From a virus: 35,844 nt of DNA. The notes under the pieces were generated by a model, which ran no database searches, was not told where the DNA came from, and worked only from the letters and a program-made list of their open reading frames with translations. The translations under genes were made by a program, and so were the position numbers. Location: positions 1 through 35,844 of the IMG/VR virus record IMGVR_UViG_3300030109_006063. The stretch is one strand, 5' to 3'. Shown piece after piece: positions 1 to 34,054 of the stretch (positions are counted from its first letter, which is position 1; the number at the start of each line of letters is the position of its first letter).

Positions 1-1446
1 AGATTGTGTAGGTGTTTGTGTTTGAGTAGGAGACGGTGTTTTAGTTTGTGAACTTGTTCTTGTACTTGTAGGTGTTGGTTGTTGAGTAGAAGTTCTTGTT
101 TCGGTAGGCGTTTGTGTTTGAGATGCCGTTCTAGAATTAGTTCTTGTAATGGTTTCTGTAGGTGTTCTAGATTTAGTTTTTGTTTGAGTAGCTGTAATTG
201 TATTGGTAGCTGTTCTTGTTTGTGTAGGTGTTTGAGTAGGTGAAACTGTTTGCGATGGTGTTCTTGATCTTGTAACTGTCTGTGTAGGTGTTTGCGTTGG
301 CGTCTGTGTTGAAGACTTGGTAACAGTCTGTGTAGATGTTCTTGTCTGTGTAGCTGTCTGTGTTTGGGTTCGTGTTTGCGTAGGTGTTTGTGTTTGACTT
401 GCCGTTCTTGTAGGAGTAACGGTTGGTGATTGAGTAATAGATTTTGTTCGTGTCTGGGTTTGGGTCTGAGTTTGGGTCTGACTTGCAGTTCTTGTAATTG
501 TAACTGAAGCTGTGACTGTCGATGTTGCAGTCCTGGTTTGTGTAGGTGTCTGAGTTTGTGTTTGAGTCTGGGTTTGTGATTGTGTAGGCGTCTGAGTTTG
601 TGTTTGAGTCTGGGTTTGTGATTGTGTAGGTGATTGTGTTCTTGTTTGCGTTTGTGTCGAAGTTCTTGTTGAGGTTTGTGTTGGTGTCTGGGTAGGTGTT
701 CTTGTTGTTGTAGCAGTCTGTGTTGCTGTTTGCGTCTGAGTAGGTGTTTGAGTAGGTGTGGGTGATTCACCATAAGAAGGGGTTATAGTTAGTGTAGGTG
801 TTTGAGTAGGTGTTCTTGTACTTGTTTTAGTCTGTGTTTGCGTGGTAGTTTGAGTTCTTGTCTGAGTAGGTGAAACCGTGGATGTATTTGTAGCGGTTCG
901 TGTTGCAGTAGCTCCTGGAGACCCTGTATTGGTTTGTGAGCGCGTTCTTGTTTGAGTCGTTGTTCTGGTTGATGTGGGTGTTTGAGAAGTAGTTGGTGTT
1001 TGTGTTTTTGTTCTAGATTGTGTTCTAGTTTGCGTAGGCGTTTTAGTAGGCGTCTTTGTTCTTGTTTTAGATGGTGTAACAGTCTGAGTTGGTGTTCTGG
1101 TTTGTGTTTGAGTTTGGGTTCTTGATTGTGTAGCAGTTCTTGTAGATGTAACTGTATCTGTTGGTGTTTGTGTTTTTGTCTTAGTTTCAGTTGTTGTTCT
1201 CGTTGGTGTTTGTGTTTGGGTGGTTGTACCAGTATGAGTCCTTGTTCTAGTCTGAGTTGGTGTTCTTGAATGGGTAGGTGTTTGAGTTGGAGATTGAGTT
1301 GGTGTTTGTGTATTAGTTTTTGTAGGGGTGGGCCCGCCTATATTAATTTTAATAGCTTTAAACGAAGGACCATTGTCAATATCACTTTGATTAACGGGTA
1401 TTTGTTTTCCGTATCGTTTAATTGTTTCTGGTACTGTTATAGGCAC
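1..1446 (-). CDS. Giant (Thr-X)n dipeptide-repeat protein, C-terminus outside the window
   Basis: The frame is open from a GTG at 1444-1446 to the left edge without a stop, so at least 482 codons are present and the end is missing. The first ~37 residues (PITVPETIKRYGKQ..., ending INIGG) are ordinary. After that roughly 445 residues have Thr at nearly every second position, alternating with Pro, Gln, Arg, Ser, Lys or Ala, encoded by a 6-bp DNA period. The GTG is chosen because the only in-frame codons between it and the upstream TAG are non-starts, and because a late promoter GATAAATA (1452-1459) ends 5 nt before it. No family is recognised. A virion stalk, fibre or mucin-like surface protein is an inference from the late promoter and the adjacent tail-fibre-like gene. 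Confidence 0.8.
   Translation of the reverse strand, partial: MPITVPETIKRYGKQIPVNQSDIDNGPSFKAIKINIGGPTPTKTNTQTPTQSPTQTPTHSRTPTQTRTRTHTGTTTQTQTPTRTTTETKTKTQTPTDTVTSTRTATQSRTQTQTQTRTPTQTVTPSKTRTKTPTKTPTQTRTQSRTKTQTPTTSQTPTSTRTTTQTRTRSQTNTGSPGATATRTATNTSTVSPTQTRTQTTTQTQTKTSTRTPTQTPTLTITPSYGESPTPTQTPTQTQTATQTATTTRTPTQTPTQTSTRTSTQTQTRTQSPTQSQTQTQTQTQTPTQSQTQTQTQTQTPTQTRTATSTVTASVTITRTASQTQTQTQTQTRTKSITQSPTVTPTRTASQTQTPTQTRTQTQTATQTRTSTQTVTKSSTQTPTQTPTQTVTRSRTPSQTVSPTQTPTQTRTATNTITATQTKTKSRTPTETITRTNSRTASQTQTPTETRTSTQQPTPTSTRTSSQTKTPSPTQTQTPTQS
541..624. repeat. 42-bp tandem duplication inside the Thr-X repeat
   Basis: Positions 541-582 and 583-624 are two copies of a 42-bp unit (seven 6-bp periods) with one base difference at the eighth position. 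This is the longest near-perfect repeat I see in the 1-1340 low-complexity tract. It indicates recent growth of the array by slippage or unequal exchange. Confidence 0.85.
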
Positions 1447-1451
1447 TAAAA

Positions 1452-1459
1452 TATTTATC
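1452..1459 (-). promoter_or_regulatory. T4-type late promoter for the Thr-X protein
   Basis: GATAAATA read on the minus strand, followed by 5 nt and the GTG start. The T4 late element TATAAATA occupies about -13 to -6, so +1 would coincide with the start codon. Confidence 0.6.
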
Positions 1460-1814
1460 TAGAAAGCTTCTCAATAAAGGACAAAACTTCGGGATCTGTT
1501 TGATTATGTGTTACACTTGATAGAGTATTAAAATCTGTTGTGCTTTGAAATTTCTTTTTACTGTTACCAAAAACTATTTCAGTAACTAAATTTTCATCTA
1601 TATCGGGTAAAGATCTTAAAGTTTCTTCATCACACAATTTTTCTCTAACACTATTAACCGTATTACCTAATCTCAATAATTTTTTTGCTTCTTTGCAAAT
1701 ATAAGTTGAATGTAGTTTTTCTTCGTCGCCAGCTTTTTCTAATTTTTTTTCATAGTATGATTTTGCTATAGTTAAAGTTCTGCCGCTGACGATACACGAA
1801 AGTTTTTTTGCCAT
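1455..1814 (-). CDS. Small CIVSGR-motif phage protein (paralogue of the 16.6-kb gene)
   Basis: 119 aa, not assigned to a named family. The N-terminus (KLSCIVSGRTLTIAKSYYEKK) aligns with the protein at 16596-17039 (KLTCIVTGKSRPTTYDYLQKK), and both continue with a Tyr-x-x-(K/R)EA helix. The two are therefore paralogues, with unrelated-looking C-termini. The conserved Cys-Ile-Val-(S/T)-Gly-(R/K) core could be a small nucleic-acid-binding fold, but no second Cys pair is obvious. It is transcribed from its own -10/-35 (1822-1848), divergent to the tail-fibre-like gene, and its end overlaps the late promoter of the Thr-X gene. Confidence 0.8.
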   Translation of the reverse strand: MAKKLSCIVSGRTLTIAKSYYEKKLEKAGDEEKLHSTYICKEAKKLLRLGNTVNSVREKLCDEETLRSLPDIDENLVTEIVFGNSKKKFQSTTDFNTLSSVTHNQTDPEVLSFIEKLSR

Positions 1815-1821
1815 TAATCAT

Positions 1822-1848
1822 ATTATAGAATGGTTCTTTAATACTCAA
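1822..1848 (-). promoter_or_regulatory. Early-type promoter
   Basis: TTGAGT (1843-1848), 15-bp spacer, TATAAT (1822-1827), then 7 nt to the ATG at 1814. The spacer is shorter than in the other promoters, and AGAAC in it resembles the GGGAAC box. Confidence 0.55.
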
Positions 1849-1849: not shown

Positions 1850-1857
1850 TATAAATA
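1850..1857 (+). promoter_or_regulatory. T4-type late promoter (perfect TATAAATA)
   Basis: TATAAATA followed by 5 nt and the ATG at 1863. This exact match to the T4 late consensus puts +1 on the A of the start codon. It is arranged back-to-back with the early-type promoter at 1822-1848. Confidence 0.8.
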
Positions 1858-1862
1858 TCTAT

Positions 1863-2549
1863 ATGGCAGATCAGATTACAAAGATCACAATAAGAAATGG
1901 GACTACTCCTGAAAAAGATTCCATTACTTTAGATACCGCTGAGCTGGGATATGCCACTGATTCGAAAAAAGTTTGGGTTGGTGATAATAGTACGGTAGGG
2001 GGTAATGTTGTAGGTCAAAAATTCTATTATAGTAATTTTAGCACAGATTTAAAAGAGACTAACACAATATATTATGCAGTATCAGGAGATCTTTGTTTTG
2101 ATTTAAACGACACTACTTTAAAAGCATTAACTGGTACAGATCCTTTAACACAAGATCAATGGGCTATTGTTGGTAATGCAAGATCAGCAACTGCAACAGA
2201 AGGTACGGTTACTGAAATTTTTACCGGAAACGGTTTAATGGTTGATGGGGACACTGCAAATGAAACTACTTTAACAACTTCTGGTACCCTTGGGGTTAAT
2301 ATCGATAGTGTATCTACGGGGTCAAAACCAGAAATACTTCAATTAAGTTTATCAGGAATAAAAGCTGACTGGAATGTTATATACCCTATAGGAGCAATTA
2401 TATGGTCTAGTGATATAGATTTTAGTCAAAACCCAACCGACTCAGGTAATTGGTTATATCAATCCGGTCAGATATGGGAAGCAGCAGGTACTTCTCAAAC
2501 TTTAGGATCAGGTGCTTCGTCGTTATCTGCATGGAAACGTACCGGATAA
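1863..2549 (+). CDS. Tail-fibre/receptor-binding-type protein
   Basis: 228 aa. The N-terminus (KITIRNGTTPEKDS... LDTAELGYATDSKKVWVGD) has the layout of the short N-terminal domain shared by many phage tail fibres and the Bordetella phage Mtd protein: 'RxG…, AELGYxTDTxxxxxGD'. The middle is rich in Thr, Ser, Gly and Asn, like a beta-structured fibre shaft. The C-terminal ~50 aa (YPIGAIIWSSD … GNWLYQSGQIWEAAG) resembles a tail-collar-type tip. It is probably a trimeric fibre or virion-surface protein. It has a perfect late promoter, an apparently leaderless ATG, and heads a plus-strand run of three late genes. Confidence 0.7.
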   Translation: MADQITKITIRNGTTPEKDSITLDTAELGYATDSKKVWVGDNSTVGGNVVGQKFYYSNFSTDLKETNTIYYAVSGDLCFDLNDTTLKALTGTDPLTQDQWAIVGNARSATATEGTVTEIFTGNGLMVDGDTANETTLTTSGTLGVNIDSVSTGSKPEILQLSLSGIKADWNVIYPIGAIIWSSDIDFSQNPTDSGNWLYQSGQIWEAAGTSQTLGSGASSLSAWKRTG

Positions 2550-2550: not shown

Positions 2551-2558
2551 CATAAATA
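2551..2558 (+). promoter_or_regulatory. Late promoter
   Basis: CATAAATA then AGGAT (5 nt) and ATG 2564. Same geometry as at 1850. It decides the start of the next gene, which could otherwise be extended upstream into the fibre gene. Confidence 0.65.
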
Positions 2559-2563
2559 AGGAT

Positions 2564-3334
2564 ATGGCACGTTACGACGATTATATCAATGACCTTTTAG
2601 GTAAGTATGTTATCGGAGAAGGAAACCGATACGTTAGAGATAAAAAGAATAAACCCAAGAAATCCAAAGGCGCTCCTGAACAGCATTTTGATGAAGACGA
2701 ACCGGATGATGATGATACAACTGAAGAGACAAAAGCTCTTAAAGAGACCATCGAAGGTGTGGGTTTAGGTGGTATTATGGGATGCGGTGGTACAGGTGAA
2801 AAATATGCACCTCCTGGTTGGAAATTTGTACATGATGAAGATGCTGAAGAACATGATAAGACAGGACATCTTTCAGATAAAGAACTTCTTTCTCATGTAG
2901 TTAAAAAAGGTACCGCTGGTAAAGCTTTAATTAAGCGTGCAAGAAAAGAAATTAAAGACGACGGTTCTATTTCACCCGATACAAGAGACGCTTTAGCTAG
3001 AGATATGTATGCGCCTTGGGCAGAAGACGAATCTGAAAAGGAAAAGCGCTTTGGTGGTAATAAAGGTGACAGAGTACGTCGTTATAATAAAAAGACAGGG
3101 CGTAAAAGTGAAGTAAGAGATTACGGAAGCGGAACCCATCCTGATGAAGATGAAGAAAAACCTTCTGCAGGGTTGTCAAAAAAAAAGAAAAGTGAAGTAG
3201 CTAAGAAAGCCAGATCTGGAGGCGACATTGGTAAAAAGGGAAAAGGTTTTGCTAAAGTAGCTAAAGCAGCTGGTGGTGGTGAAAAAGGTCAGAAGATAGC
3301 TGCTGCAGCAATGTGGAAAAACATTAAGAGGTGA
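2564..3334 (+). CDS. Late charged phage protein with Lys-rich C-terminal module
   Basis: 256 aa from the ATG placed by the late promoter. The N-terminal ~20 aa (MARYDDYINDLLGKYVIGE) precede a strongly acidic stretch (EDEPDDDDTTEE). The central part is helical and charged. The C-terminal ~70 aa are Lys/Gly/Ala-rich (SKKKKSEVAKKARSGG … GGGEKGQKIAAAAMWKNIKR), a module I associate with late proteins of T4-like aquatic phages. The basic tail could bind DNA or an acidic partner. The VIGE at residue 19 has the I-x-E form of a T4 prohead-protease site, a weak hint of packaging. It overlaps the next gene by 4 nt. Confidence 0.75.
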   Translation: MARYDDYINDLLGKYVIGEGNRYVRDKKNKPKKSKGAPEQHFDEDEPDDDDTTEETKALKETIEGVGLGGIMGCGGTGEKYAPPGWKFVHDEDAEEHDKTGHLSDKELLSHVVKKGTAGKALIKRARKEIKDDGSISPDTRDALARDMYAPWAEDESEKEKRFGGNKGDRVRRYNKKTGRKSEVRDYGSGTHPDEDEEKPSAGLSKKKKSEVAKKARSGGDIGKKGKGFAKVAKAAGGGEKGQKIAAAAMWKNIKR

Positions 3335-3693: not shown

Positions 3694-4511
3694 GGTAAAT
3701 TAAGTTTTTGTCCCGTTTGAAGTTTTTTAGGATCTACACCGGGATTTGCTTTTATTAGATCGTTTACTTTTATTCTTAAATTATTTGCAATTCCATAAAA
3801 CGTATCACCTTGTTTAACTATAACGGTAGATTCATCTGAATCTTTTTTACCTTTTGTTTCATCAGGCATAAATTGTCTTTTATCTAAAAACAATTCTTCA
3901 AACATTTTATTTCTTCTAACAAGCTCTTTACCCCCGGAGTATCTTTTATGCTCCTTTTTCATACCCTCAAGATCATTTGCAATCACTGCTTTAGTAAACT
4001 TAGGAAACTCTCTTGCAAATTTAGGTCCTAAATTATAAGCAAAATCAATAAGCATTTGCTTTCTTTTCATATCTAGTTTATCGTACTCTTTTCCTATTTT
4101 CATCCTTACGGTATTCTCAGCAGTCAATAAATCTCTTTTTAATAAATTATCAACTTCAACTTGAGATAAGCCTCTAGGGTATCTTTCATTTGAACCTAGT
4201 TTATGCCCGTAACCTATTGTATCTGTACCACCTTCGAAACTTTTATGAGGGTACCATCTGTTATTTTTAAACCCCGTCTTACCTGCATTCTCTGCTGATT
4301 TGATATATTCGACAAACTCTCTTTCCATCTTTGGATCCATTTGTCCAATTGGTCTTTCTATTGCACTTGGAGCTTCTGCTGCATCTACAGAACCACCTGT
4401 CATAGACCCGGCTCCTATTGCAGCTGCAGCTGCAGCACCTTTAATTATATCCTTCAAACCTTCTTCTTGTACTGAATAAGCTTCAAAAATAAGACGGTTG
4501 TCTTTGTTCAT
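3690..4511 (-). CDS. Lysozyme (GH24-like) with C-terminal LysM and CTS-like N-terminus
   Basis: 273 aa. Residues 1-11 (MNKDNRLIFE/A) form a capsid-targeting-like peptide ending in IFE. An Ala/Gly-rich stretch follows (about 25-45). A T4-lysozyme-type muramidase domain (about 60-215) has Glu74 as the likely acid and the GGTDTIGYGH motif at 94-103. A LysM peptidoglycan-binding domain lies at about 228-273 (VKQGDTFYGIANNLRIKVND … LQTGQKLNLP). It lacks a secretion signal, so it is more likely a virion enzyme used at entry than a holin-type endolysin. AATAAATA (4518-4525) upstream resembles a late promoter, 6 nt from the ATG. Confidence 0.85.
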   Translation of the reverse strand: MNKDNRLIFEAYSVQEEGLKDIIKGAAAAAAIGAGSMTGGSVDAAEAPSAIERPIGQMDPKMEREFVEYIKSAENAGKTGFKNNRWYPHKSFEGGTDTIGYGHKLGSNERYPRGLSQVEVDNLLKRDLLTAENTVRMKIGKEYDKLDMKRKQMLIDFAYNLGPKFAREFPKFTKAVIANDLEGMKKEHKRYSGGKELVRRNKMFEELFLDKRQFMPDETKGKKDSDESTVIVKQGDTFYGIANNLRIKVNDLIKANPGVDPKKLQTGQKLNLP

Positions 4512-4520
4512 ATATTATAT

Positions 4521-5000
4521 TTATTCCCACGGAAAGACTAACCACGTTTTTGGATCCATTATTTGTGAGTAATAAGTTGGAATAGTTTTAGGAACAAAAT
4601 CATCACTCTTCTTCAAATAAACGACCGCTGAATCAAAATTAAAATTATATTTGTAAGAGTATGAAAAATAACTTAATATCTTTTGAGTTTCAAATAATGT
4701 TTCGCCTCTATCTACTAAATCATCTATAATCAATACATTTTGACACCCTTTAAAATCTTTATGATTTAACGAAGTTACAAATTGAACTTGATGAGCATAT
4801 TCATCAATATAAGCTTTTATTGAAACGGTAAATACCTTTTTTATTTCAAGAGCCTTAGCTATTAAACATGTTGGAATTAATCCCCCGTTAGCTATACCTA
4901 CAATACAATCATATTCTATATTGCTGGCTTTTATTTTTTGAACGACGCTATCAACGTCTTTTTCTATATCGGTCCAGGTAAGGCGTAATTTATCAGACAT
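4521..5000 (-). CDS. Phosphoribosyltransferase (xanthine-guanine type)
   Basis: 159 aa, the usual length of a type I PRTase. The PRPP-binding loop is clear at 88-101 (NVLIIDDLVDRGET), and residues 33-41 (IVGIANGGL) form the N-terminal PPi-loop region. The C-terminus (TWLVFPWE) matches the ending of xanthine/guanine PRTases. The expected activity is salvage of purine bases to nucleotides with PRPP, in the cytoplasm. It is the last gene of a minus-strand run after the small lipoprotein and papain-like genes. The substrate cannot be fixed from sequence. Confidence 0.85.
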   Translation of the reverse strand: MSDKLRLTWTDIEKDVDSVVQKIKASNIEYDCIVGIANGGLIPTCLIAKALEIKKVFTVSIKAYIDEYAHQVQFVTSLNHKDFKGCQNVLIIDDLVDRGETLFETQKILSYFSYSYKYNFNFDSAVVYLKKSDDFVPKTIPTYYSQIMDPKTWLVFPWE

Positions 5001-5666: not shown

Positions 5667-5672
5667 TATAAT
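5667..5672 (+). promoter_or_regulatory. -10 element of a plus-strand promoter
   Basis: TATAAT followed by 6 nt and GTG 5679, the same spacing as the minus-strand early promoters. No good -35 is seen 16-18 bp upstream. Confidence 0.45.
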
Positions 5673-5678
5673 TATTTT

Positions 5679-6506
5679 GTGATTGACAAGAATAATTACT
5701 CGTCGGGAGAGGTACATGCTTTATTTCCAACACCTGTAGTCGCTTATGATATAGATAAAGATATCATACAATCCACTAAACAAGTTTTATTACAGGAATT
5801 TAAAGATTCGTGTGATGGTAAATTTAATCAAAAAATAGGCCACGACCATAATTTTAAATTAAGAACAAATTCTGTTTGTAGGTCTGATGATTTATCAATA
5901 TATCAATCTGGAGAAGAATTGCATTTAAATAAAAAGTTAAAACCAATAATAAAAAATATATTTAAAAATCTAGATGACTATGTTACTTATATTTTAAACG
6001 GTCACGTAGATAGTTGGGAGATACCGGCACTTTGGAGCAATATATATAAAGCAAACACAATAACGGGTAATGTAAATGAAAGTAATGGCGGTGGTTTAAA
6101 AATTCATAACCACGGTAATTCTTTTTTATCTGGTATAGTAATTATAAAAGATGATGCAGTTGATGAATCTATAAACGAAAATTATGATAATAGTTCTGAT
6201 GCACATTTATATTTTTACGACCCTTTAAATCATAGAAACACTATTGTTCCTAAACATAATCCTAACAACAAAGTTAGATACCCTTCATCCGATGAATTTA
6301 ATGTAGTAGGAATACCTGCAACTTTTGCAACACCTGGTAAAATGATTATTTTTCCATCATATCTAAAACATAGTGCTAGTAATAATGTTTCAACTTCTTT
6401 AGAAGGTGATTCTTTAAATCAAGATAATCTTAGAATTACTTTAGCGTTTAATTCTTTTCCTAGAGGAGAAGTAGGAATTACAAATAGTAGTCACCTTTAC
6501 CTATAA
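5679..6506 (+). CDS. 2OG-Fe(II) oxygenase of the phage TIGR02466 type
   Basis: 275 aa from the GTG at 5679. The longer frame from 5601 would overlap the opposite-strand gene and the promoter. Features of the TIGR02466/2OG-FeII_Oxy_5 group are present: LFPTPVVAYDI near the N-terminus, IHNHGNSFLSG (His143/His145), HLYFYDP (176-182), PGKMIIFPSYLKHSA (219-233, His231) and LRITLAFN (Arg252 for 2-oxoglutarate). The reaction class is Fe(II)/2-oxoglutarate hydroxylation; the substrate is unknown. It is a lone plus-strand gene between minus-strand genes, closed by a hairpin at 6512-6527. Confidence 0.85.
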   Translation: MIDKNNYSSGEVHALFPTPVVAYDIDKDIIQSTKQVLLQEFKDSCDGKFNQKIGHDHNFKLRTNSVCRSDDLSIYQSGEELHLNKKLKPIIKNIFKNLDDYVTYILNGHVDSWEIPALWSNIYKANTITGNVNESNGGGLKIHNHGNSFLSGIVIIKDDAVDESINENYDNSSDAHLYFYDPLNHRNTIVPKHNPNNKVRYPSSDEFNVVGIPATFATPGKMIIFPSYLKHSASNNVSTSLEGDSLNQDNLRITLAFNSFPRGEVGITNSSHLYL

Positions 6507-6550: not shown

Positions 6551-7072
6551 TTAGAGCTTAAAGTCTGTATAACCAACTAATGGGTTACTTAATGCATTTA
6601 TATCACCAGATACAGGATCTACTCCTGATTCAATACCGGCTGCAATAGCCTTCAAAACTTTAACTGCTTTTTCTTTGTTAGCAATATTATCTTTTACGTT
6701 TTGAGAATAAAAACCATTGTAAGCAGATAAACCTAAGTCAAGTGCTCCAATAACCGCGGTATTAAATGGTACAGGTACCTTTTCATTAATTCCGTCAGTA
6801 AGATATTTTTTAACAACATCTGGTTCAACTTTACCATCAGTTACTAGCCCGTTAATAATAGAAGCTGCATCAGAAAAATAACCTCTTATTTTTTCTTTGT
6901 CATCAACTGTAGCTAAATAAGTTTTTGTCGAAAATGTTACACCATTTTCTACTACAGTAAGAATAGTATTAAGTTTTTTCTCCGCTGCTTGTTCAGGAGT
7001 TAAGTTTTCAGTTGAAGGGCATGCAACTAAAAACATTGCCATAAAGGGTAATAATAGATTTAATTTTTTCAT
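6551..7072 (-). CDS. Lipoprotein, unknown function
   Basis: 173 aa with a signal sequence and lipobox (FLVAC, Cys18) followed by a mostly helical, moderately acidic domain. It has no recognised family. ATTAAATA lies 8 nt before the ATG, i.e. the late geometry with a 3-nt leader. It probably sits in an envelope membrane late in infection, where a lysis or exclusion role is possible. The transcript ends at the 6512-6527 hairpin. Confidence 0.75.
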   Translation of the reverse strand: MKKLNLLLPFMAMFLVACPSTENLTPEQAAEKKLNTILTVVENGVTFSTKTYLATVDDKEKIRGYFSDAASIINGLVTDGKVEPDVVKKYLTDGINEKVPVPFNTAVIGALDLGLSAYNGFYSQNVKDNIANKEKAVKVLKAIAAGIESGVDPVSGDINALSNPLVGYTDFKL

Positions 7073-7083
7073 ATCAAAAGTAT

Positions 7084-7386
7084 TTAATTAACATTACTTG
7101 ATAATTGCCGTTCTAGGTCAGCGAGTTTAGATATCACATTATCTATTTCAGATGTATTCATGCCTTTTTCTCTATGAGTCTTAAGGAATTCTATAATAGA
7201 AGAACAGTTTGCCTTTTCTTTAGAAATAGGACCGTGATCTTCTTCACCTTCAGCTGCAGCGGTACTTCTATAATTAGCAGGGGTTAGACCCTGCTGCATT
7301 TGGTTACTATTTCCGGTGCGCATATCCTGGGTTTGTAAAGAATCAAACCCTTCGGTATGTATTGTCCATAGTTCGTCAAATTTCAT
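7084..7386 (-). CDS. Small phage protein, unknown
   Basis: 100 aa, hydrophilic. It has a Gln/Asn-rich middle (NSNQMQQGLTPANY) and a helical C-terminus (NVISKLADLERQL). The N-terminus MKFDELWTIHTE/GFD superficially resembles a capsid-targeting peptide but lacks the L/I-x-E spacing. The ATG overlaps the end of the TGT-like gene by 11 nt, so the two are cotranscribed. Confidence 0.65.
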   Translation of the reverse strand: MKFDELWTIHTEGFDSLQTQDMRTGNSNQMQQGLTPANYRSTAAAEGEEDHGPISKEKANCSSIIEFLKTHREKGMNTSEIDNVISKLADLERQLSSNVN

Positions 7387-8215
7387 AATTATTATATTTA
7401 GTCAATTCACCGTTAACAATATAATCAAACATTCTAGTATTGTATGTAATAGCATCTAATTGATCATCATTTATTTCCACTTCAATCTGCTCAAACAATT
7501 TTAGTTCTGGTTTATCGTCTCTACCAAAGTCACTATTATAGTATTTTTCTTCAATACCAACTGTAACAGGATTTGATGTATCAACTGATCTAATATTATC
7601 AATTTGGTTCTTTCTATACCATGAAAACTCTCTTGCAAGAGAACAACCTAACAAATGGTGAGGTTTATCCCAATTCCAAACACCTTCATCAATTAATCTC
7701 TGCACCAATTGTTGACGACCGGTTGCACATCTTTCTAATCTAGTACTACCAACACCTGTTACATCGTACATACTAAAGTCAAAACTAATTGCAATATAAT
7801 CTGCATTACTGCTCATAAACTTATAGCACTGTAATACATCATTCCATGTCTTACCTTGAACAACACCAATAGCTTTACCGGGTAACTTTGTATACTTTTC
7901 TGTAAAGTCTGTATACGAATTAATTGTAGCTGCAGCATCTTCCAATACATCAGGTACAATATAAAAATTAGGTTGAATTTTTTCAGCCCAGTCTGCATAC
8001 ATGTCTGGATCAAAAGAAACACCTAATTCAAAAATAGAATTATCTAAAAGTATTTCGCCAGAAGGTCTTAGAGCTCTATATCTTTTTGTAAACCAATCGT
8101 GATATTTTTCTTGCTCTTCCATAAGGTGTACTAAGCAGTATTGGTAATCGTTAAACGATAAAGACTCTTCTAATAAAGTAACCGGGCATTCATGCGATAC
8201 TAATGTTCTGTTCAT
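7376..8215 (-). CDS. tRNA-guanine transglycosylase-like (DpdA-like) protein
   Basis: 279 aa. Motifs follow the TGT superfamily TIM barrel in order: LLDNS (57-60; TGT 'lDSG', Asp58), YIVPDV (85-90), AIGVVQG (115-121; TGT 'GIVQGG'), HHLLG (186-190) and SVDTSNP (210-216; Asp212 at the nucleophile position). The C-terminal Cys3-His zinc site of bacterial TGT is absent and the protein is shorter than TGT (about 370 aa). That fits phage DpdA-type enzymes, which insert 7-deazaguanines into DNA, but base-exchange activity is inferred. It has its own promoter (8222-8249) with the ATG at the predicted +1. Confidence 0.6.
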   Translation of the reverse strand: MNRTLVSHECPVTLLEESLSFNDYQYCLVHLMEEQEKYHDWFTKRYRALRPSGEILLDNSIFELGVSFDPDMYADWAEKIQPNFYIVPDVLEDAAATINSYTDFTEKYTKLPGKAIGVVQGKTWNDVLQCYKFMSSNADYIAISFDFSMYDVTGVGSTRLERCATGRQQLVQRLIDEGVWNWDKPHHLLGCSLAREFSWYRKNQIDNIRSVDTSNPVTVGIEEKYYNSDFGRDDKPELKLFEQIEVEINDDQLDAITYNTRMFDYIVNGELTKYNNYEI

Positions 8216-8221
8216 ACGTCT

Positions 8222-8249
8222 ATTATAGATTAAAACTGAATAACGTCAA
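8222..8249 (-). promoter_or_regulatory. Early-type promoter, leaderless geometry
   Basis: TTGACG (8244-8249), 16-bp spacer, TATAAT (8222-8227), 6 nt, ATG 8215. The TGA stop of the upstream gene (8246-8248) lies within the -35. There is no GGGAAC box. Confidence 0.75.
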
Positions 8250-8695
8250 TTAGTAAAAGGCCATACATATTCAAGATTATCTTTTTCTTGAGGCCAAACT
8301 TGTTTATAAAATTCTGGTTGTTTTTGTATCAGCATACTTCTATGCGATTGATGAATATCTTTTCTTCCTAACCATTTAGGATAAACGTGAGGTTTATTTT
8401 TATTATAATGAGCACCTATTTTATGAAAGCATGTGTCTTTATATCCTCTTTCTTTCCATGCAATACAAACATCTAATCCATATTCTACTAAAGCATTTGA
8501 ATAGTCATGTCTATCTTTCATATACCACATATGCCTACAAGGGTGGTTTTTCCATCCTTTATAAGGTGTACCCTCTTTAGATGCTCTAATTGAATTAAGA
8601 AGTTGAAGTACTTCTACTCTTTGCTTACCTAATCTTTTCTGATCGAGTACTTTAGCACTCTTGTAAAAATTATTGTAAGGTAAAAACGTTTGCAT
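8246..8695 (-). CDS. Pyrimidine-dimer DNA glycosylase-like protein (MSMEG_6728/Pyr_excise type)
   Basis: 149 aa, full length for the family. Diagnostic segments are MQTFLPYNNFYKSAKVLD, KRLGKQRVEVLQLLN (20-34), WKNHPCRHMW, a RGYKDT helix, and the end SHRSMLIQKQPEFY … YVWP. The family is related to T4 endonuclease V but lacks proof of the same chemistry. Expected role: recognition of UV lesions or modified pyrimidines in DNA. The adjacent TGT-like gene also suggests base-level DNA or RNA work. Transcribed from a promoter inside the end of the sulfotransferase gene. Confidence 0.75.
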   Translation of the reverse strand: MQTFLPYNNFYKSAKVLDQKRLGKQRVEVLQLLNSIRASKEGTPYKGWKNHPCRHMWYMKDRHDYSNALVEYGLDVCIAWKERGYKDTCFHKIGAHYNKNKPHVYPKWLGRKDIHQSHRSMLIQKQPEFYKQVWPQEKDNLEYVWPFTN

Positions 8696-9244
8696 TTAAG
8701 CTATTATATCTTCAATCTTTGGTAAATTCAAGTCTTCTCTTTTATGTGTATGTGGATAATTTTGCTCTGGAATAGGTACTTCAAGAAACTCGCAAAGTTT
8801 ATCCCACTTATTGTTCTCTTCAACATAAATTGTTAATAAATCTTTTTCTCTAAATTTAAAATAATCAGTTACATCATCTAAATGTTTAAAAAATGCTTTT
8901 TGCATTTTATCTTTATTAAACTTATGAGTACCGTATAATGCATAATGCAAATGATCTGTTTTACAAGTTCTTTCATCAGTTATATCCCATTGACTGAATA
9001 ATGCTTCCATTGAACCCAACCAAGATTCTACATTTCTCAAAGTTAGGATAAATTTAGAATTAGGAAACATTACATCGAGGAATTTATAACCTAGAGTAAT
9101 TGTTGTATCGCATAGCGCGATATGGTTATTAAAAGCATCCAAATTAGTAGGGAAATGAATGCTGCTGAAATTAAGTGTTTGGAGAGCATTGTGTAAAGAT
9201 GTTGTTCCTGTTCTTGCTAATCCTATGTTAAATATCTTGTTCAT
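8696..9244 (-). CDS. Sulfotransferase-like protein
   Basis: 182 aa from the ATG at 9244, which is preceded by AAGGA and overlaps the upstream gene; a longer in-frame start exists at 9268. The motif NIGLARTGTTSL (6-17) is the 5'-phosphosulfate P-loop of PAPS sulfotransferases, and FILTLRN (65-71, Arg70) matches the 3'-phosphate-binding strand. The protein is shorter than typical (250-300 aa), as in compact phage and bacterial Sulfotransfer_4-type members. It would transfer sulfate from PAPS to an unknown acceptor, perhaps surface glycans given the glycosyltransferases in the window. Confidence 0.75.
   Translation of the reverse strand: MNKIFNIGLARTGTTSLHNALQTLNFSSIHFPTNLDAFNNHIALCDTTITLGYKFLDVMFPNSKFILTLRNVESWLGSMEALFSQWDITDERTCKTDHLHYALYGTHKFNKDKMQKAFFKHLDDVTDYFKFREKDLLTIYVEENNKWDKLCEFLEVPIPEQNYPHTHKREDLNLPKIEDIIA
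8703..8731 (-). promoter_or_regulatory. Early-type promoter inside the upstream gene
   Basis: TTGAAT (8726-8731), 17-bp spacer, TATAAT (8703-8708), 7 nt to ATG 8695. It lies entirely within the coding end of the sulfotransferase-like gene. Confidence 0.55.
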
Positions 9245-9624: not shown

Positions 9625-10170
9625 TTATTGTCCTGATTTTTTAAGTTGGTTTTTAAGATATTCTTCTCCAGCTTTAATATTAATTTTAACAGGACCTTTT
9701 TGTTGCATTCTTTCTTTGTGGTCATCTAATGCTTTCCTTCCGGGATGATTTCTTATTTCATCTTGTATTTCGTCAAAAGAGCGTATCTCGTCATCTTCGT
9801 TTGTTGATACATCCCACCCAGGTTTTATTCTATCTAATAATTGTTTAGATGCGTCTCTGGATTCTTTAGTAAATTTTCCAGGGGTGTTATGAATAAAATG
9901 CAAAAAATTTGTTACGTTATCTAACTCACCGGCTTTACCTATTTGGTAAATAAATTCATTTACATCGTCCCCCAAACCGAAAGTTAAAAACATTGTAATT
10001 AATTTTGTTCCTAAACCTTTAGAGTCGACGGATAAATTCATTTGTTTACCCTGGGTAATATCTGAAGCAAAAGCAGGTAATCTATGACGATCGGAACCAC
10101 TACCACCTGGCCCCCCGGTCATCACTCTCTCAAATAATAACTCAATGTTCTTATTATCTTTATCGAACAT
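9625..10170 (-). CDS. Putative packaged head protein with CTS-like N-terminus
   Basis: 181 aa. MFDKDNKNIELLFE/RVMTGGPGG carries the same 'KDN…LxFE' signature as the lysozyme and the two genes at 31.8-34.0 kb, ending in L-F-E before a Gly-rich linker. The remainder is a soluble domain without recognised motifs (FLTFGLGDDVNEFIYQIGK … EEYLKNQLKKSGQ). It sits behind a palindromic late promoter region shared with the divergent Zn-finger gene. I infer capsid packaging and prohead-protease cleavage from the N-terminus only. Confidence 0.7.
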   Translation of the reverse strand: MFDKDNKNIELLFERVMTGGPGGSGSDRHRLPAFASDITQGKQMNLSVDSKGLGTKLITMFLTFGLGDDVNEFIYQIGKAGELDNVTNFLHFIHNTPGKFTKESRDASKQLLDRIKPGWDVSTNEDDEIRSFDEIQDEIRNHPGRKALDDHKERMQQKGPVKINIKAGEEYLKNQLKKSGQ

Positions 10171-10171
10171 A

Positions 10172-10185
10172 TTTAAATATTTATA
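10172..10185. promoter_or_regulatory. Divergent late promoters
   Basis: Plus strand: TTTAAATA (10172-10179), 5 nt, ATG 10185. Minus strand: TATAAATA (10185-10178), 7 nt, ATG 10170. The intergenic region is only 14 bp, so both promoters occupy the same nearly palindromic bases and could not be used at once on one molecule. Confidence 0.6.
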
Positions 10186-10361
10186 TGGTCCAGTGCGAAA
10201 ACTGTAAAAAGGATGTAAGTAGTGAACTTGAGTTAACTTTAGTTGCTAGACAAGAATGGGGAAAGACCAAATCAGGTTTGGGTGTACAAAGGTTTATATG
10301 CAAAGAATGTATAGAAAAATTATGTTGTGGAAAAAATTGCGGTTGTCATAATAATAAATAG
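10185..10361 (+). CDS. 58-aa Cys-rich zinc-finger protein
   Basis: 58 aa that contains C4-x2-C7, C39-x2-C42 and a C-terminal CC-x3-C-x-C-H cluster (47-55), enough ligands for two zinc sites. Basic residues lie between them (ARQEWGKTKSGLGVQRF). It probably contacts nucleic acid or protein; the family is unrecognised. The stop at 10361 is 4 nt before the next ATG. It opens the plus-strand cassette that ends with DUF1552. Confidence 0.75.
   Translation: MVQCENCKKDVSSELELTLVARQEWGKTKSGLGVQRFICKECIEKLCCGKNCGCHNNK
10353..10360 (+). promoter_or_regulatory. Late promoter
   Basis: AATAAATA, 5 nt (GATAT), ATG 10366. It overlaps the last codons of the Zn-finger gene and fixes the start of the secreted basic protein. 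Confidence 0.6.
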
Positions 10362-10365
10362 ATAT

Positions 10366-10851
10366 ATGAAATATTTTATTGTAATGTTGGCCTTGGTTTT
10401 TTGCGTCACTACCGTTGACGCTCGTCCTGATAAAGGCGGTAAACCTCGTAAAGAAAAAGTTTCAAAAGAGGAACTTAAAAAGAGATGGGAAGCTGCTAAG
10501 AAAAAGCGAGATGCTAAACGCGGTGATGCTAAAAAGAAAGGTCACAAGCATAAAGGACCTCGAGGTGAATTCGGAAAGTTAGTTCGCAATGATGAAAAGA
10601 TTAAAGAGCTAAAAAAAGAATTTGCTGCAGCTACTGAAAAGATTAAAGGTAAATTTGATCGCAAGAAGTTCAAAGATGCTACTGATGAAGAAAAGGCTGC
10701 CTTGAGAGATAAGCTGAGATCTTCTCGCAAAGAGTGGGAAACAGCTATGAAAGCTCATAGAGTCGAAGTTGGTAAGCGTATGAGAGAGATTCGAGAAGAG
10801 TTTAAAAACAATCGCAACAAAGTGATTGATGGAAATAAACCAGGCGAATAA
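10366..10851 (+). CDS. Secreted, highly basic coiled-coil protein
   Basis: 161 aa from ATG 10366. A signal peptide (MKYFIVMLALVFCVTTVDA) is followed by a Lys/Arg/Glu-rich helical body (KEELKKRWEAAKKKRDAKRG … KRMREIREEFKNNRNK). There are no Cys and no catalytic motif. Small secreted Lys/Gly-rich helical proteins of this kind are common in Verrucomicrobia, so a host origin is plausible. It would act in the periplasm or outside the cell, binding acidic polymers or the envelope. A strong terminator follows at 10881. Confidence 0.75.
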   Translation: MKYFIVMLALVFCVTTVDARPDKGGKPRKEKVSKEELKKRWEAAKKKRDAKRGDAKKKGHKHKGPRGEFGKLVRNDEKIKELKKEFAAATEKIKGKFDRKKFKDATDEEKAALRDKLRSSRKEWETAMKAHRVEVGKRMREIREEFKNNRNKVIDGNKPGE

Positions 10852-10914: not shown

Positions 10915-10922
10915 CTTAAATA
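10915..10922 (+). promoter_or_regulatory. Late promoter
   Basis: CTTAAATA followed by 8 nt and ATG 10931, i.e. the late geometry with an expected 3-nt leader. Confidence 0.5.
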
Positions 10923-10930
10923 TCGTTATT

Positions 10931-11149
10931 ATGTCAAACGATTATGCAACTCCAAGTACAACCGCGGAACCATGTGGTAGTGTAACACCCCAGACAACAT
11001 CAGAGCCAAGTGCTCCTCAGACAACATCTGAACCTTGCGGTGGTTGGGCTACACCTGAAACAACTTCTGATCAAACACCTCTCCATCCTGGGAATCGTGA
11101 TGAAAATAAAACACCACCAACACCCACACCTTGTGGATCTGGATATTAA
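10931..11149 (+). CDS. Thr/Pro/Ser-rich small repeat protein
   Basis: 72 aa made of three imperfect units (TPQTTSEP, APQTTSEPCG, TPETTSDQ) and a TPPTPTPCG end. Four Cys-Gly pairs occur along its length (PCG). It is low complexity and probably disordered or extended. It is not homologous to the 1-1446 protein beyond its Thr/Pro bias. It lies between a terminator and the DUF1552 gene. Function unknown; a surface or linker peptide is possible. Confidence 0.6.
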   Translation: MSNDYATPSTTAEPCGSVTPQTTSEPSAPQTTSEPCGGWATPETTSDQTPLHPGNRDENKTPPTPTPCGSGY

Positions 11150-11171: not shown

Positions 11172-11176
11172 TAAAA

Positions 11177-20231: not shown

Positions 20232-20240
20232 GACTCAATA

Positions 20241-20592: not shown

Positions 20593-20602
20593 AACTTCAA
20601 AT

Positions 20603-20874: not shown

Positions 20875-20883
20875 AATACAAAT

Positions 20884-23127: not shown

Positions 23128-23145
23128 ATCAATTTAACTCCTCTA

Positions 23146-23173
23146 ATTATAGTTCAGTTCCTTATATCGTCAA
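23146..23173 (-). promoter_or_regulatory. Early promoter with near-consensus box (AGGAAC)
   Basis: TTGACG (23168-23173), 16-bp spacer, AGGAAC at 23157-23162, TATAAT (23146-23151). The 18-nt gap to the ATG holds AGAGGAG, unlike the leaderless sister promoters. Confidence 0.8.
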
Positions 23174-23446
23174 GTCGGAATTTTCCTTATAAAAGTTCGT
23201 ACAAGAAAAAGCTTGACCCCAACTCGTGCAATATCCAGTAGCGTGTTCCTCCTCAATAAACTTCTCTACTAGATCCCATTTTACATCTACACCTTCCATA
23301 CCATCTAACTCTTGCATATGAAAAAATGCTCTCATCTTAAAAGTATCAAGATCCATTTTTGATTCAGCCTCCATCTCTTCTTTCCAATTAAGATAGAATG
23401 CATTATTGATAATCTCTTTTACCTTTTTGTCAATCATACTTTCCAT
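23162..23446 (-). CDS. 94-aa acidic protein, unknown
   Basis: Helical and Met/Glu-rich (MESMIDKKVKEIINNAFYL … VEKFIEEEHATGY), with a Cys-containing end (YCTSWGQAFSCTNF). Own promoter, ATG at the predicted +1; the stop lies inside the RadA-like gene's promoter. Unassigned. Confidence 0.65.
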   Translation of the reverse strand: MESMIDKKVKEIINNAFYLNWKEEMEAESKMDLDTFKMRAFFHMQELDGMEGVDVKWDLVEKFIEEEHATGYCTSWGQAFSCTNFYKENSDLTI

Positions 23447-23449
23447 GCT

Positions 23450-23635
23450 TTAATTGTATGATGGTTCCGTATCGTCTACAAGCCAAAACTTCCAATTGCC
23501 ATTAACATATGATTGCATAGCAATTCCTTCCTTGATCAGATCTACCCAATCACGCATAACATATTCTTGAATGATCGGATGCCAATTGCTCAGCGTCTTT
23601 CTCATTTCTAGCGTCGTTTCATAACTCTTACTCAT
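23450..23635 (-). CDS. 61-aa protein, unknown
   Basis: Helical N-terminus (SYETTLEMRKTLSNWHPIIQ) and a Trp-containing end (NGNWKFWLVDDTEPSYN). The last ten codons double as the next gene's promoter. Own box promoter; ATG 9 nt after the -10. Confidence 0.65.
   Translation of the reverse strand: MSKSYETTLEMRKTLSNWHPIIQEYVMRDWVDLIKEGIAMQSYVNGNWKFWLVDDTEPSYN
23453..23481 (-). promoter_or_regulatory. Early promoter embedded in coding sequence (CGGAAC box)
   Basis: TTGTAG (23476-23481), CGGAAC at 23464-23469, TACAAT (23453-23458), 6 nt to ATG 23446. The whole promoter encodes the last residues of the upstream gene, whose TAA (23450-23452) follows the -10. Confidence 0.78.
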
Positions 23636-23644
23636 GACGCTATA

Positions 23645-23673
23645 ATTATAAGTACGTTCCCTATTATGGTCAA
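23645..23673 (-). promoter_or_regulatory. Early promoter with GGGAAC box
   Basis: TTGACC (23668-23673), GGGAAC at 23656-23661, TATAAT (23645-23650), 9 nt to ATG 23635. The upstream TGA (23670-23672) is in the -35. A good match to the regulon consensus. Confidence 0.9.
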
Positions 23674-24418: not shown

Positions 24419-24544
24419 TTATGCGTCAATCTCAAACTTTCTACAATACGAACCTTTACCTTTTTTAGGTTTATGGACTCTTGAACCTGTATTGAATCGA
24501 ATCAATACTCTAGGTTTCAATCTTTTGTCTATAATTTTCTTCAT
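24419..24544 (-). CDS. 41-aa very basic protein
   Basis: The product starts MKKIIDKRLKPRVLIRF and ends VHKPKKGKGSYCRKFEIDA, with over a quarter Lys/Arg. Two ATGs adjoin (24545 and 24542); the promoter spacing favours the second. It looks like a small RNA- or DNA-binding peptide. Followed by the glycosyltransferase. Confidence 0.6.
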   Translation of the reverse strand: MKKIIDKRLKPRVLIRFNTGSRVHKPKKGKGSYCRKFEIDA

Positions 24545-24550
24545 CATATA

Positions 24551-24579
24551 ATGATAGGTTCGTTCCTTTTACGTTTCAA
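24551..24579 (-). promoter_or_regulatory. Early promoter with near-consensus box (AGGAAC)
   Basis: TTGAAA (24574-24579), 17-bp spacer with AGGAAC at 24562-24567, TATCAT (24551-24556), 6 nt to ATG 24544. It sits directly downstream of the structured-RNA candidate. Confidence 0.8.
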
Positions 24580-27300: not shown

Positions 27301-27484
27301 TCTTCTGTCTTACTAGTTTATATTCCATGCCTATAGAGTCAATAGAAGGACCGTTTACCATTTCTTCAAAAACTCTTTTTGCATCTTTATCGTCTACCGC
27401 CCAAAAGTACATATAACTCCAACTGTTACTTACTTTTTTGTTGCGATACTTTTTAGCATATTTTGTCATTGCTACTTGCTCCAT
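27287..27484 (-). CDS. 65-aa basic protein
   Basis: MEQVAMTKYAKKYRNKKVSN followed by SYMYFWAVDDKDAKRVFEEM. The N-terminal half is basic and the C-terminal half mixed. The ATG sits at the predicted +1 of its promoter. The last codons overlap the next gene. Unassigned. Confidence 0.62.
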   Translation of the reverse strand: MEQVAMTKYAKKYRNKKVSNSWSYMYFWAVDDKDAKRVFEEMVNGPSIDSIGMEYKLVRQKNEKV

Positions 27485-27490
27485 GCTAAT

Positions 27491-27519
27491 ATTATAATGA
27501 CCTCCGATAGTTTGTTCAA
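27491..27519 (-). promoter_or_regulatory. Early promoter with degenerate box
   Basis: TTGAAC (27514-27519), 17-bp spacer, TATAAT (27491-27496), 6 nt to ATG 27484. The box position reads TCGGAG instead of GGGAAC. The upstream TGA (27516-27518) is in the -35. Confidence 0.78.
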
Positions 27520-29534: not shown

Positions 29535-29740
29535 TATTCTTCCTCGTTATTTGAATAAAAAGTCTCTCCGTCTATCTTATTTTTAGATAGATGGCCTTCT
29601 TCTACCATTTCTTCTAGTAATTCAGTTAGCACTTCTAGATCAGTCTTATTTGCATCTTCAACCAATTCATCTTGGTTTTCAGTGACATGATCAAGTAGTT
29701 CGTCTACTGTTCCTGTAAATATGTCGTTTTTATCACTCAT
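29534..29740 (-). CDS. 68-aa very acidic protein
   Basis: About one third Asp/Glu (VDELLDHVTENQDELVEDAN … TELLEEMVEEGHLSKN). Helical. High acidity is typical of DNA-mimic or anti-restriction peptides, which is suggestive only. ATG 9 nt after the -10; its end overlaps DUF932 (TAATG). Confidence 0.68.
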   Translation of the reverse strand: MSDKNDIFTGTVDELLDHVTENQDELVEDANKTDLEVLTELLEEMVEEGHLSKNKIDGETFYSNNEEE

Positions 29741-29749
29741 GACTCAATT

Positions 29750-29778
29750 ATTATAAGGACGTTCCCAAAACTAATCAA
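29750..29778 (-). promoter_or_regulatory. Early promoter with GGGAAC box
   Basis: TTGATT (29773-29778), GGGAAC at 29761-29766, TATAAT (29750-29755), 9 nt to ATG 29740. Confidence 0.88.
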
Positions 29779-30535: not shown

Positions 30536-30759
30536 GAATAATATTTAGCTTCTTCTTCCTCTATAAAATCACAAAGCTCATCTAGAGTCATATTTCCGTC
30601 TTCAATATCCTTTAGAATAATTTTCTTAATTTTCTTCAAATGTGGATAAAGCTCATCAATATTGCATTCTAGGTCATCAAAATTACGTCTTAAATTCATT
30701 GACCACTTTTCAATCATAAAAAGTATATTCAATACTTTAGTGCTTTTCTCTTTCAGCAT
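30532..30759 (-). CDS. 75-aa helical protein
   Basis: All-helical with leucine repeats (STKVLNILFMIEKWSMNLRR … PHLKKIKKIILKDIEDGNMT) and an acidic end (FIEEEEAKYYS). ATG at the predicted +1. First gene of a two-gene transcript with the basic 57-aa protein. Unassigned. Confidence 0.65.
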   Translation of the reverse strand: MLKEKSTKVLNILFMIEKWSMNLRRNFDDLECNIDELYPHLKKIKKIILKDIEDGNMTLDELCDFIEEEEAKYYS

Positions 30760-30765
30760 ACTTAA

Positions 30766-30794
30766 ATTATAAGTAAGTTCCCTAATCAGTTCAA
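30766..30794 (-). promoter_or_regulatory. Early promoter with GGGAAC box
   Basis: TTGAAC (30789-30794), GGGAAC at 30777-30782, TATAAT (30766-30771), 6 nt to ATG 30759. The upstream TGA (30786-30788) is next to the -35. Confidence 0.88.
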
Positions 30795-33472: not shown

Positions 33473-34041
33473 CCTAATGCGTTAGGTACTTTAGTACCCC
33501 CTTTCGTTCCGTAGCCCTTTCCGTAACCTCCCCCAGCCCCTTGCCATGACTGCTGATATTGTGTTAAAACTTCTTCGTTGTTAGCATTATTGAGATAAGG
33601 TTCAGTAGCTACCTTTTCAGCATCCTCGTCTTCTTTACCCCACTGAGCCAATAACTTTTGATTTTTTTTGAATTCCATCCATCCTTCCGGATCAGAACGA
33701 TACGTATCTATTAACCATCTTAATCTTTTTGCTCTATCTTGATCTACATTCTTACTTTGTTCCATTCCTAATAATTTTTTTTGTAGGTTTGAAACTATAT
33801 CTTCATCTAAATTTTCAGTATTTTTTGCAAAGAGTTCTGCTGCATCATATAAATCTCGACTTGTGTTTATTACAGCATCTTGATAAATCATATCAGCTGA
33901 ACCAAGCATTTCTTCTTTTGCTTTATCGCCTTTGTAATCATAATATGTTGTAATAGCGGGGTAAGCTAACCCCATAGCTAATGCAGTGTTTAATACATCT
34001 TTTTTCCAGCTTTCAAATATTAAATGTGAGTCTTGCTGCAC
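33469..34041 (-). CDS. Putative packaged head protein with CTS-like N-terminus
   Basis: 190 aa from GTG 34041. MQQDSHLIFE/SW is a third close relative of the CTS-like motif (x-D-x-x-L-I-F-E). It is followed by a hydrophobic short helix (ALAMGLAYPAITTYY) and an all-helical, acidic region with a Gly-rich tail (GAGGGYGKGYGTKGG). It is adjacent to, and cotranscribed with, the PcfJ-like gene, so the two may be packaged together. Late promoter AATAAATA ends 5 nt upstream. Confidence 0.72.
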   Translation of the reverse strand: MQQDSHLIFESWKKDVLNTALAMGLAYPAITTYYDYKGDKAKEEMLGSADMIYQDAVINTSRDLYDAAELFAKNTENLDEDIVSNLQKKLLGMEQSKNVDQDRAKRLRWLIDTYRSDPEGWMEFKKNQKLLAQWGKEDEDAEKVATEPYLNNANNEEVLTQYQQSWQGAGGGYGKGYGTKGGTKVPNALG

Positions 34042-34046
34042 ATATA

Positions 34047-34054
34047 TATTTATT
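34047..34054 (-). promoter_or_regulatory. Late promoter
   Basis: AATAAATA, 5 nt, GTG 34041. A strong example of the late geometry with a GTG at +1; an overlapping ATG in another frame (34041-34043) is rejected because it is stopped after 7 codons. Confidence 0.75.

Follow-up and report, generated by a model that had tools for sequence, protein, structure and literature searches.

Early and late promoters in the viral record IMGVR_UViG_3300030109_006063 (IMG/VR) appear to be fused to start codons, and we put at about 85% the probability that they produce leaderless mRNAs, with Shine-Dalgarno-free initiation, in a lineage of the T4 superfamily. The window that we analysed is the entire record (35,844 bp). 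It is very likely a genome fragment, has 34% G+C, and no tRNA genes were found in it. Throughout, the gap is the number of nucleotides between the -10 hexamer (early) or the late octamer NATAAATA and the start codon. The sigma70 hexamer lies at -12 to -7, and therefore a gap of 6 would place +1 on the A of ATG and a gap of 9 would leave a 3-nt leader. The T4 late octamer has its first base at -13 (PMC2988020); +1 would thus be the sixth base after the octamer, and a gap of 5 would place it on the start codon. A preliminary description of this DNA had proposed that start codons lie systematically at +1 or +4 of early and late transcripts. Judged from sequence, that proposal is supported by gap peaks in relatives, by a gap that is kept while its sequence drifts, and by the lack of such peaks in T4 and cyanophages.

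Gap spectra were built from all occurrences of TATAAT and NATAAATA on either strand, counting open start codons at gaps 0-45; genes were called by our own mechanical script, and p-values take sites as independent. Among the early promoters of the window, ATG occurs at gap 6 eight times, the mean per gap being 0.63 (Poisson p 4e-7). Five of the nine late octamers have a start codon at gap 5 (3 ATG and 2 GTG), against ~0.1 expected. Such p-values are optimistic for the window, because the gaps were chosen there and some of its promoters, those with a GGGAAC box, seem to be copies of each other. A fair test therefore requires the relatives, for which both gaps were fixed beforehand.

With the RadA-like ATPase of the window (22168-23127) as query, we found eight related uncultured contigs (G001-G008), most of them fragments. 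Identity of this protein to its homolog in the window is 92% in G001, 90% in G002, 64-68% in G003-G006, 62% in G008 and 50% in G007, the largest relative (146.8 kb). The search for cultured relatives returned only distant RadA-type matches and no cultured phage with a close homolog. Early starts at gap 6 number 7 in G001, 13 in G002, 3 in G004 and 4 in G005; G003 has 4 against a mean of 0.43 (plus 6 at gap 7), and G007 has 24 against a mean of 2.4, with 2-3 at neighbouring gaps. At late gap 5, G002 has 2 ATG and 3 GTG, G003 has 6 (against 0.03) plus 2 GTG, and G007, which carries 65 octamers, has 11 against a mean of 0.57. Both gap peaks recur among the uncultured relatives, even at 50% protein identity. 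A test for random gaps, set beforehand in the preliminary description and run over all promoters of the larger relatives, found them sharply non-random, with the same two values. No significant peak at early gap 6 or late gap 5 was found in T4 or in the cyanophages Syn19 and P-HM2.

It could be argued that RNA polymerase mostly begins 2-5 nt before the start codon, so that 5' untranslated regions are non-zero, very short, and too short for a Shine-Dalgarno sequence. Bacterial start-site choice varies by 1-2 nt, and gaps of 7-10 form a sizeable minority: the window has 3 early starts at gap 7, 5 at gap 9 and 2 at gap 10, and late starts in G007 include 5 at gap 6 and 3 at gap 7. However, the peaks at gap 6, as in G007, and at gap 5 are sharp and a single base wide, as selection on +1 at the start codon predicts, and we consider very short leaders an unlikely general explanation.

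The individual junctions agree largely with those first described. Eight of the ten early sites claimed at gap 6 are exact TATAAT-N6-ATG; the other two, before 23446 (TACAAT) and 24544 (TATCAT), have one-mismatch boxes. The gap-9 sites were borne out at 19657, 19874, 20231, 20874 (GTG), 23635 and 29740. The four predicted GTG starts were also recovered, 5679 and 20874 after TATAAT (gaps 6 and 9) and 1446 and 34041 after a late box (gap 5). The early junctions are:

8213..8227, minus strand: TATAAT-N6-ATG, start 8215, gene 7376-8215; same layout in G001, G002 and G007 (52% identical ortholog).
14763..14777, minus strand: TATAAT-N6-ATG, start 14765, gene 14472-14765; gap 6 in G001 and G002 too.
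16343..16357, minus strand: TATAAT-N6-ATG, start 16345, gene 16139-16345; no TTGA -35 element, CGGCCTATATATACCCCGCGG upstream instead.
17037..17051, minus strand: TATAAT-N6-ATG, start 17039, gene 16596-17039; gap 6 in G001 too.
17401..17415, minus strand: TTGA-N8-GGGAAC-N5-TATAAT-N6-ATG, start 17403, 32 codons; G002 ortholog at gap 6.
18993..19007, minus strand: GGGAAC-type, TATAAT-N6-ATG, start 18995, gene 18810-18995.
27482..27496, minus strand: TATAAT-N6-ATG, start 27484, gene 27287-27484; gap 6 in G002.
30757..30771, minus strand: GGGAAC-type, TATAAT-N6-ATG, start 30759, gene 30532-30759.
23444..23458, minus strand: TACAAT-N6-ATG, start 23446, gene 23162-23446; exact TATAAT at gap 6 in G001 and G002.
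24542..24556, minus strand: TATCAT-N6-ATG, start 24544, GGAAC upstream; open reading frame (ORF) of 41 codons.
5667..5681, plus strand: TATAAT-N6-GTG, predicted start 5679, 2OG-Fe(II) oxygenase gene ending at 6506.
1812..1827, minus strand: TATAAT-N7-ATG, start 1814, gene 1455-1814, divergent from the late promoter of 1863; gap 7 in G002, 6 in G007.
8693..8708, minus strand: TATAAT-N7-ATG, start 8695, gene 8246-8695, pyrimidine dimer glycosylase family; gap 6 in G002.
19655..19672, minus strand: GGGAAC-type, TATAAT-N9-ATG, start 19657; expected +1 is the A of ATC.
19872..19889, minus strand: GGGAAC-type, TATAAT-N9-ATG, start 19874; G002 ortholog has ATG at gap 6.
20229..20246, minus strand: GGGAAC-type, TATAAT-N9-ATG, start 20231, gene 20055-20231.
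20590..20608, minus strand: GGGAAC-type, TATAAT-N10-ATG, start 20592; G002 ortholog has ATGATG at gaps 6 and 9.
20872..20889, minus strand: GGGAAC-type, TATAAT-N9-GTG, start 20874; GTG start conserved in G001 and G002.
23633..23650, minus strand: GGGAAC-type promoter pattern, TATAAT-N9-ATG, start 23635.
29738..29755, minus strand: GGGAAC-type, TATAAT-N9-ATG, start 29740; conserved in G002.

The longer ORF of the oxygenase matches a PHROG family from residue 30, and the GTG at 5679 is its residue 27. Before the 16345 gene (16343-16400), CGGCCTATATATACCCCGCGG, which replaces the -35 element, is partly conserved in G001 and G002.

For the late class, the gap-5 sites first listed have exact octamers before 1446 (GTG), 1863, 2564, 10366 and 34041 (GTG), and a one-mismatch box at 11164. 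The two sites placed at gap 8 (7081 and 10915) do have that gap, with octamers that carry one mismatch. The site given as 10172 on the plus strand at gap 5 proved to be on the minus strand (octamer 10185-10178) at gap 7, and the site before 4511 (gap 6) was missing from that list. The late junctions are:

1850..1865, plus strand: TATAAATA, gap 5, ATG 1863; gap 5 in G002, gap 7 in G003.
2551..2566, plus strand: CATAAATA, gap 5, ATG 2564; gap 5 in G002.
10353..10368, plus strand: AATAAATA, exact box, gap 5, ATG 10366.
34039..34054, minus strand: AATAAATA, gap 5, GTG 34041; G003 homolog at gap 5 too.
1444..1459, minus strand: GATAAATA, gap 5, GTG 1446; ORF continues past the window end.
4509..4525, minus strand: AATAAATA, gap 6, ATG 4511, lysozyme-LysM gene; gap 6 in G002.
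10168..10185, minus strand: TATAAATA, gap 7, ATG 10170; gap 9 in G002.
11164..11179, plus strand: one-mismatch box ATTAAATA, gap 5, ATG 11177, DUF1552 gene.
7070..7088, minus strand: one-mismatch box ATTAAATA, gap 8, ATG 7072; exact box at gap 8 in G002.
10915..10933, plus strand: one-mismatch box CTTAAATA, gap 8, ATG 10931, read from the sequence.

Under loose criteria, a promoter-start junction stands at 20 of the 32 genes that head transcription units in the window; the pattern is common, not universal. The word "systematically" in the first proposal overstates this: gaps of 5-10 dominate, but leaders of ~7-12 nt exist and operon-internal genes mostly lack a promoter of their own.

Conservation bears on both the gap and the start codon. 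We aligned 20 ortholog pairs between the window and G001 or G002 at the start codon, one of which (31506) is an in-gene false positive. Across the -10 box (-12 to -7), 1, 3, 3, 3, 5 and 1 pairs differ at successive positions; across the gap (-6 to -1), 4, 7, 9, 6, 5 and 3 do. The gap is kept in length more than in sequence. Substitutions per codon position in these pairs are 0.14/0.10/0.30 downstream of the start and 0.42/0.40/0.43, without a period, upstream. Periodicity begins at the start codon, and therefore coding constraint begins at the predicted start. In relatives at 34-52% identity, orthologs of 28503-29534 (DUF932), 27689-28171 and 7376-8215 have their starts at gap 6 or 7. In G003-G005, TATAAT-N6 is followed at once by the DUF932 reading frame, whose product opens with MLIDNSLV or MLIENSLV; the G007 ortholog (34%) is arranged alike. 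The gap 9-10 starts of the window appear to be related to gap-6 starts, judging by the G002 orthologs of 19874 and 20592.

The hexamers next to start codons are also linked to a -35 element. TTGA or TTGC stands at 16-18 bp from 14 of the 19 TATAAT in the window that have a start at gap 6, 7 or 9, versus 8 of the 73 others (Fisher p 2e-7). The same linkage is found in G007 (24/31 versus 34/301; p 7e-15), in G002 (p 3e-5) and in G003 and G004 together (p 4e-6); in T4, cyanophages and HTVC008M, a cultured Pelagibacter phage of the Kyanoviridae, p is 0.5-1.

The Shine-Dalgarno signal gives the complementary picture. AGGA or GGAG at ribosome-binding distance is not enriched in the window with G003 and G004 (163 genes) or in G007 (162 genes), and the same test yields strong peaks in T4 and HTVC008M and weak ones in cyanophages. 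In alignments, the -10 box and gap fill the Shine-Dalgarno position upstream of these starts. Because the absence is lineage-wide, operon-internal genes of the window, G003, G004 and G007 included, the earlier claim of Shine-Dalgarno sites inside operons is unsupported. The RadA-like gene, also described as having such a site at a longer gap, is a clear but rare exception in the window, G001 and G002:

23125..23151, minus strand: TATAAT, ~12-nt leader with AGGAG, ATG 23127, RadA-like ATPase; leader conserved in G001 and G002.

Its ortholog in G006 has gap 6 and no leader, and therefore individual genes have switched mode.

The A/T-rich box might instead be a translational enhancer, with the real promoters further upstream. 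This lineage is A/T-rich and without Shine-Dalgarno enrichment, and A/T-rich upstream signals have been reported in Bacteroidetes (PMC3160421). However, the hexamer and octamer are specific and have single-base spacing, the -35 element at 16-18 nt is enriched only there, the spacer contains a GGGAAC box, and two motifs have two different gaps, as two sigma factors would give. We regard an enhancer as very improbable.

The clade of the window carries GGGAAC in the spacer, in the arrangement TTGA-N8-GGGAAC-N5-TATAAT. A promoter pattern free of any start codon, GGAA[CG]-N3-6-TA[TA]AAT, finds 12 sites in the window, and the first ATG or GTG lies at gap 6-10 in 9 of them; in one of the remaining three a chance TTG precedes a GTG at gap 9, and the last two have their starts at 13 and 18. 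The -35 element of G007 is AGTTGC, without GGGAAC, and the N6 spacing is unchanged. Spacing was thus conserved while the promoter sequence changed, and is therefore not explained by the copying of one promoter. A scan of the collection with the start-codon-free GGGAAC pattern found further contigs, among them four homologous to the window's lineage (L220, L224, L244 and L269). Pooled with L289 and L290, these show an early gap-6 peak (9) and a late gap-5 peak (11), the late count not being an unbiased test because L289 and L290 were picked for their many late gap-5 sites. Chance plus duplication, in which one A/T-rich promoter was copied often within the window and carried its start codon along, is already disfavoured and has in our estimate the smallest probability of all: the GGGAAC promoters are alike over ~25 bp and several share GTCATGAG, but the late promoters have no such copy history, and the same gaps occur after the different promoter of G007 and in the pooled contigs.

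A scan with a G007-type pattern gave mostly single matches per contig and was not used as evidence; it is circular for the gap because the pattern already held N6-ATG. The GGGAAC box itself (17277-30797, minus strand) has a fixed place in the 17-bp spacer and is common to the window, G001 and G002, partly present in G003 and G004, and absent from G007. Possible roles are those of an operator or of an additional contact for sigma or an activator.

A mechanism consistent with the observed geometry, its conservation, its link to a -35 element and the lineage-wide absence of a Shine-Dalgarno signal would begin with two polymerase specificities. At early genes, the host sigma70-type RNA polymerase would read TTGA (or TTGC), a spacer of ~17 nt and TATAAT; at late genes, a phage gp55-type sigma factor would read NATAAATA. 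The fixed gaps, 6 after the hexamer and 5 after the octamer, would put +1 on the first base of ATG or GTG or 3-4 nt before it. The mRNAs would then be leaderless, beginning 5'-AUG or with a few-nt leader as in GUC-AUG, and ribosomes would therefore have to start at the 5'-terminal codon without Shine-Dalgarno pairing. Initiation would probably follow the 70S/IF2-fMet-tRNA route described for leaderless mRNA, in a host that presumably translates such mRNA well.

Several points weigh against leaderless initiation as set out here. First, +1 may shift by 1-2 nt, which would make leaders of 1-4 nt possible. Second, the promoters of the window are not fully independent observations because several closely resemble each other. 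Third, some genes lie at gaps of 12-18, one of them with a real-looking Shine-Dalgarno sequence. Moreover, operon-internal genes, including the major capsid gene of G007, lack both a promoter junction and a clear Shine-Dalgarno sequence, and therefore leaderless initiation is not the explanation for all translation. Finally, no gp55 homolog is recognised in the available fragments: gp55, gp33, gp45 and bS21 of HTVC008M as phmmer queries had no match in any of these incomplete contigs.

Affiliation with the T4 superfamily is drawn from the relatives. G007 encodes homologs of the T4-type virion proteins gp23 (phrog_138, E 1e-88), gp15 (PF16724), gp21 and gp4; G003-G006 between them encode homologs of gp20, gp25, gp6, gp15, gp26 and gp44. 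The late octamer precedes gp15 in G003 and gp25 in G006. The nearest named matches for gp23 are cyanophages, at 34-35%. None of the T4 hallmark genes tested was found in the window itself, and the virion homologs sit in its relatives. The window would thus appear to be a fragment of an uncultured T4-superfamily myophage.

Phage T4 has the same octamer (TATAAATA, gp55) and the same expected +1 (octamer -13 to -6). However, in most cases 12-36 nt separate its box from the ATG, a Shine-Dalgarno sequence is typical, and no open-frame ATG stands at gap 5. HTVC008M matches the pattern in the late class only. Nine of its 45 NATAAATA boxes lie exactly 5 nt before an ATG (mean 0.33 per gap), and all nine ATGs are annotated gene starts, including those of the tape measure, DNA end protector, baseplate tail tube cap, baseplate wedge subunit and baseplate wedge initiator:

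NC_020484, HTVC008M late gap-5 sites: 6267, 7549, 16020, 18929, 19443, 31119, 49747, 75546, 142347.

These late genes are predicted to be leaderless. Unlike the window's lineage, HTVC008M keeps Shine-Dalgarno sequences in many genes and has 36 of its 45 boxes off gap 5, and it has no early gap-6 peak. A pelagimyophage survey reported that promoter methods for cyanomyophages failed on pelagimyophages (PMC7029224). HTVC008M encodes a bS21, and E. coli ribosomes with that bS21 are nearly inactive on GFP mRNA (PMC6375957); a link between bS21 and its late genes is speculation. One could go further and propose that the phage takes active control of host translation and steers it to start codons at the 5' terminus, its leaderless mRNAs outcompeting leadered host mRNAs, and that the leaderless late class shared with bS21-encoding HTVC008M reflects a strategy general among T4-like phages of the ocean and not passive adaptation to a host poor in Shine-Dalgarno sequences. 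We hold this to be unlikely.

Outside the T4 superfamily, leaderless genes with a -10 box ~12 bp before the start are found in many bacteria (PMC3160421) and have been shown by experiment in Deinococcus (PMC12340547). The TANNNT genes of Deinococcus-Thermus and Actinobacteria, whose -10 box is adjacent to the ORF, share the early geometry of the window, with the -10 box ~12 bp upstream and +1 at the start codon (PMC3160421, PMC12340547). Unlike the window's promoters, they are cellular and often lack a -35 element; most sites of the window have one, and the same rule extends to its second promoter, of the phage late type. For Thermus phage phiYS40, most middle and late mRNAs are without a leader, according to the account of Sevostyanova et al. 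in PMC3594737. By that description, it resembles the window's lineage as a tailed phage in which most mRNAs of one temporal class are leaderless. It differs in its Thermus host, from a phylum rich in leaderless genes, and in that the account describes only middle and late classes; the lineage studied here belongs to the T4 superfamily and has both sigma70 early and T4-type late classes. No T4-superfamily phage described as leaderless was found in the literature searched (open-licence papers). Leaderless genes and a mostly leaderless phage, phiYS40, are already known; a T4-like lineage predicted to be leaderless in both temporal classes is new to that literature.

T4-like phages are textbook examples of leadered, Shine-Dalgarno-driven genes, and this lineage would show that a large phage genome can have its translation initiation remodelled throughout. 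The pattern points to hosts, or infected cells, in which initiation is signalled mainly by an AUG at the 5' end. As a practical rule, promoter spacing can be used to call start codons, GTG included, in these metagenomic phages. The host of HTVC008M is in culture, and as this phage shows the late half of the pattern, the idea is already open to test.

There are some hints of the host. DUF1552 (11177-12424 in the window) and DUF1501 (G007 133112-134413; L028:13112-14413) are families of secreted proteins that we take to be associated with Planctomycetota and Verrucomicrobiota. Their carriage by T4-like phages fits these phyla as a possible hint, not a host assignment. Host prediction from DUF1552 was suggestive, not decisive, with matches of 36% in a metagenome-assembled genome labelled Acidobacteria, 28% on a Planctomyces plasmid and 32% on a Novosphingobium plasmid. 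Some Verrucomicrobiota were Shine-Dalgarno-scarce in a survey (PMC10783764).

Similar junctions were sought in other phages. No clear late gap-5 excess over a reversed-pattern control was found in KVP40, phiM12, Cr30, S-PM2, P-SSM2, RM378, phiW-14, phi1422 or AG-345-E02. At early gap 6, S-PM2 has 5 sites versus 0 for the reversed pattern, and Delftia phage phiW-14 (NC_013697) has 7 TATAAT-N6-ATG versus 0; the latter may have some leaderless early genes. Twelve contigs whose homology to the window is slight or absent (L218, L221, L226, L235, L236, L241, L252, L256, L259, L270, L278 and L284) carry a different arrangement, TTGAC-N4-TTAAGGGAAC...TATAAT-GTCAAGN-ATG, in which the gap is 7 and a TTGAC/GTCAA inverted repeat flanks the promoter.

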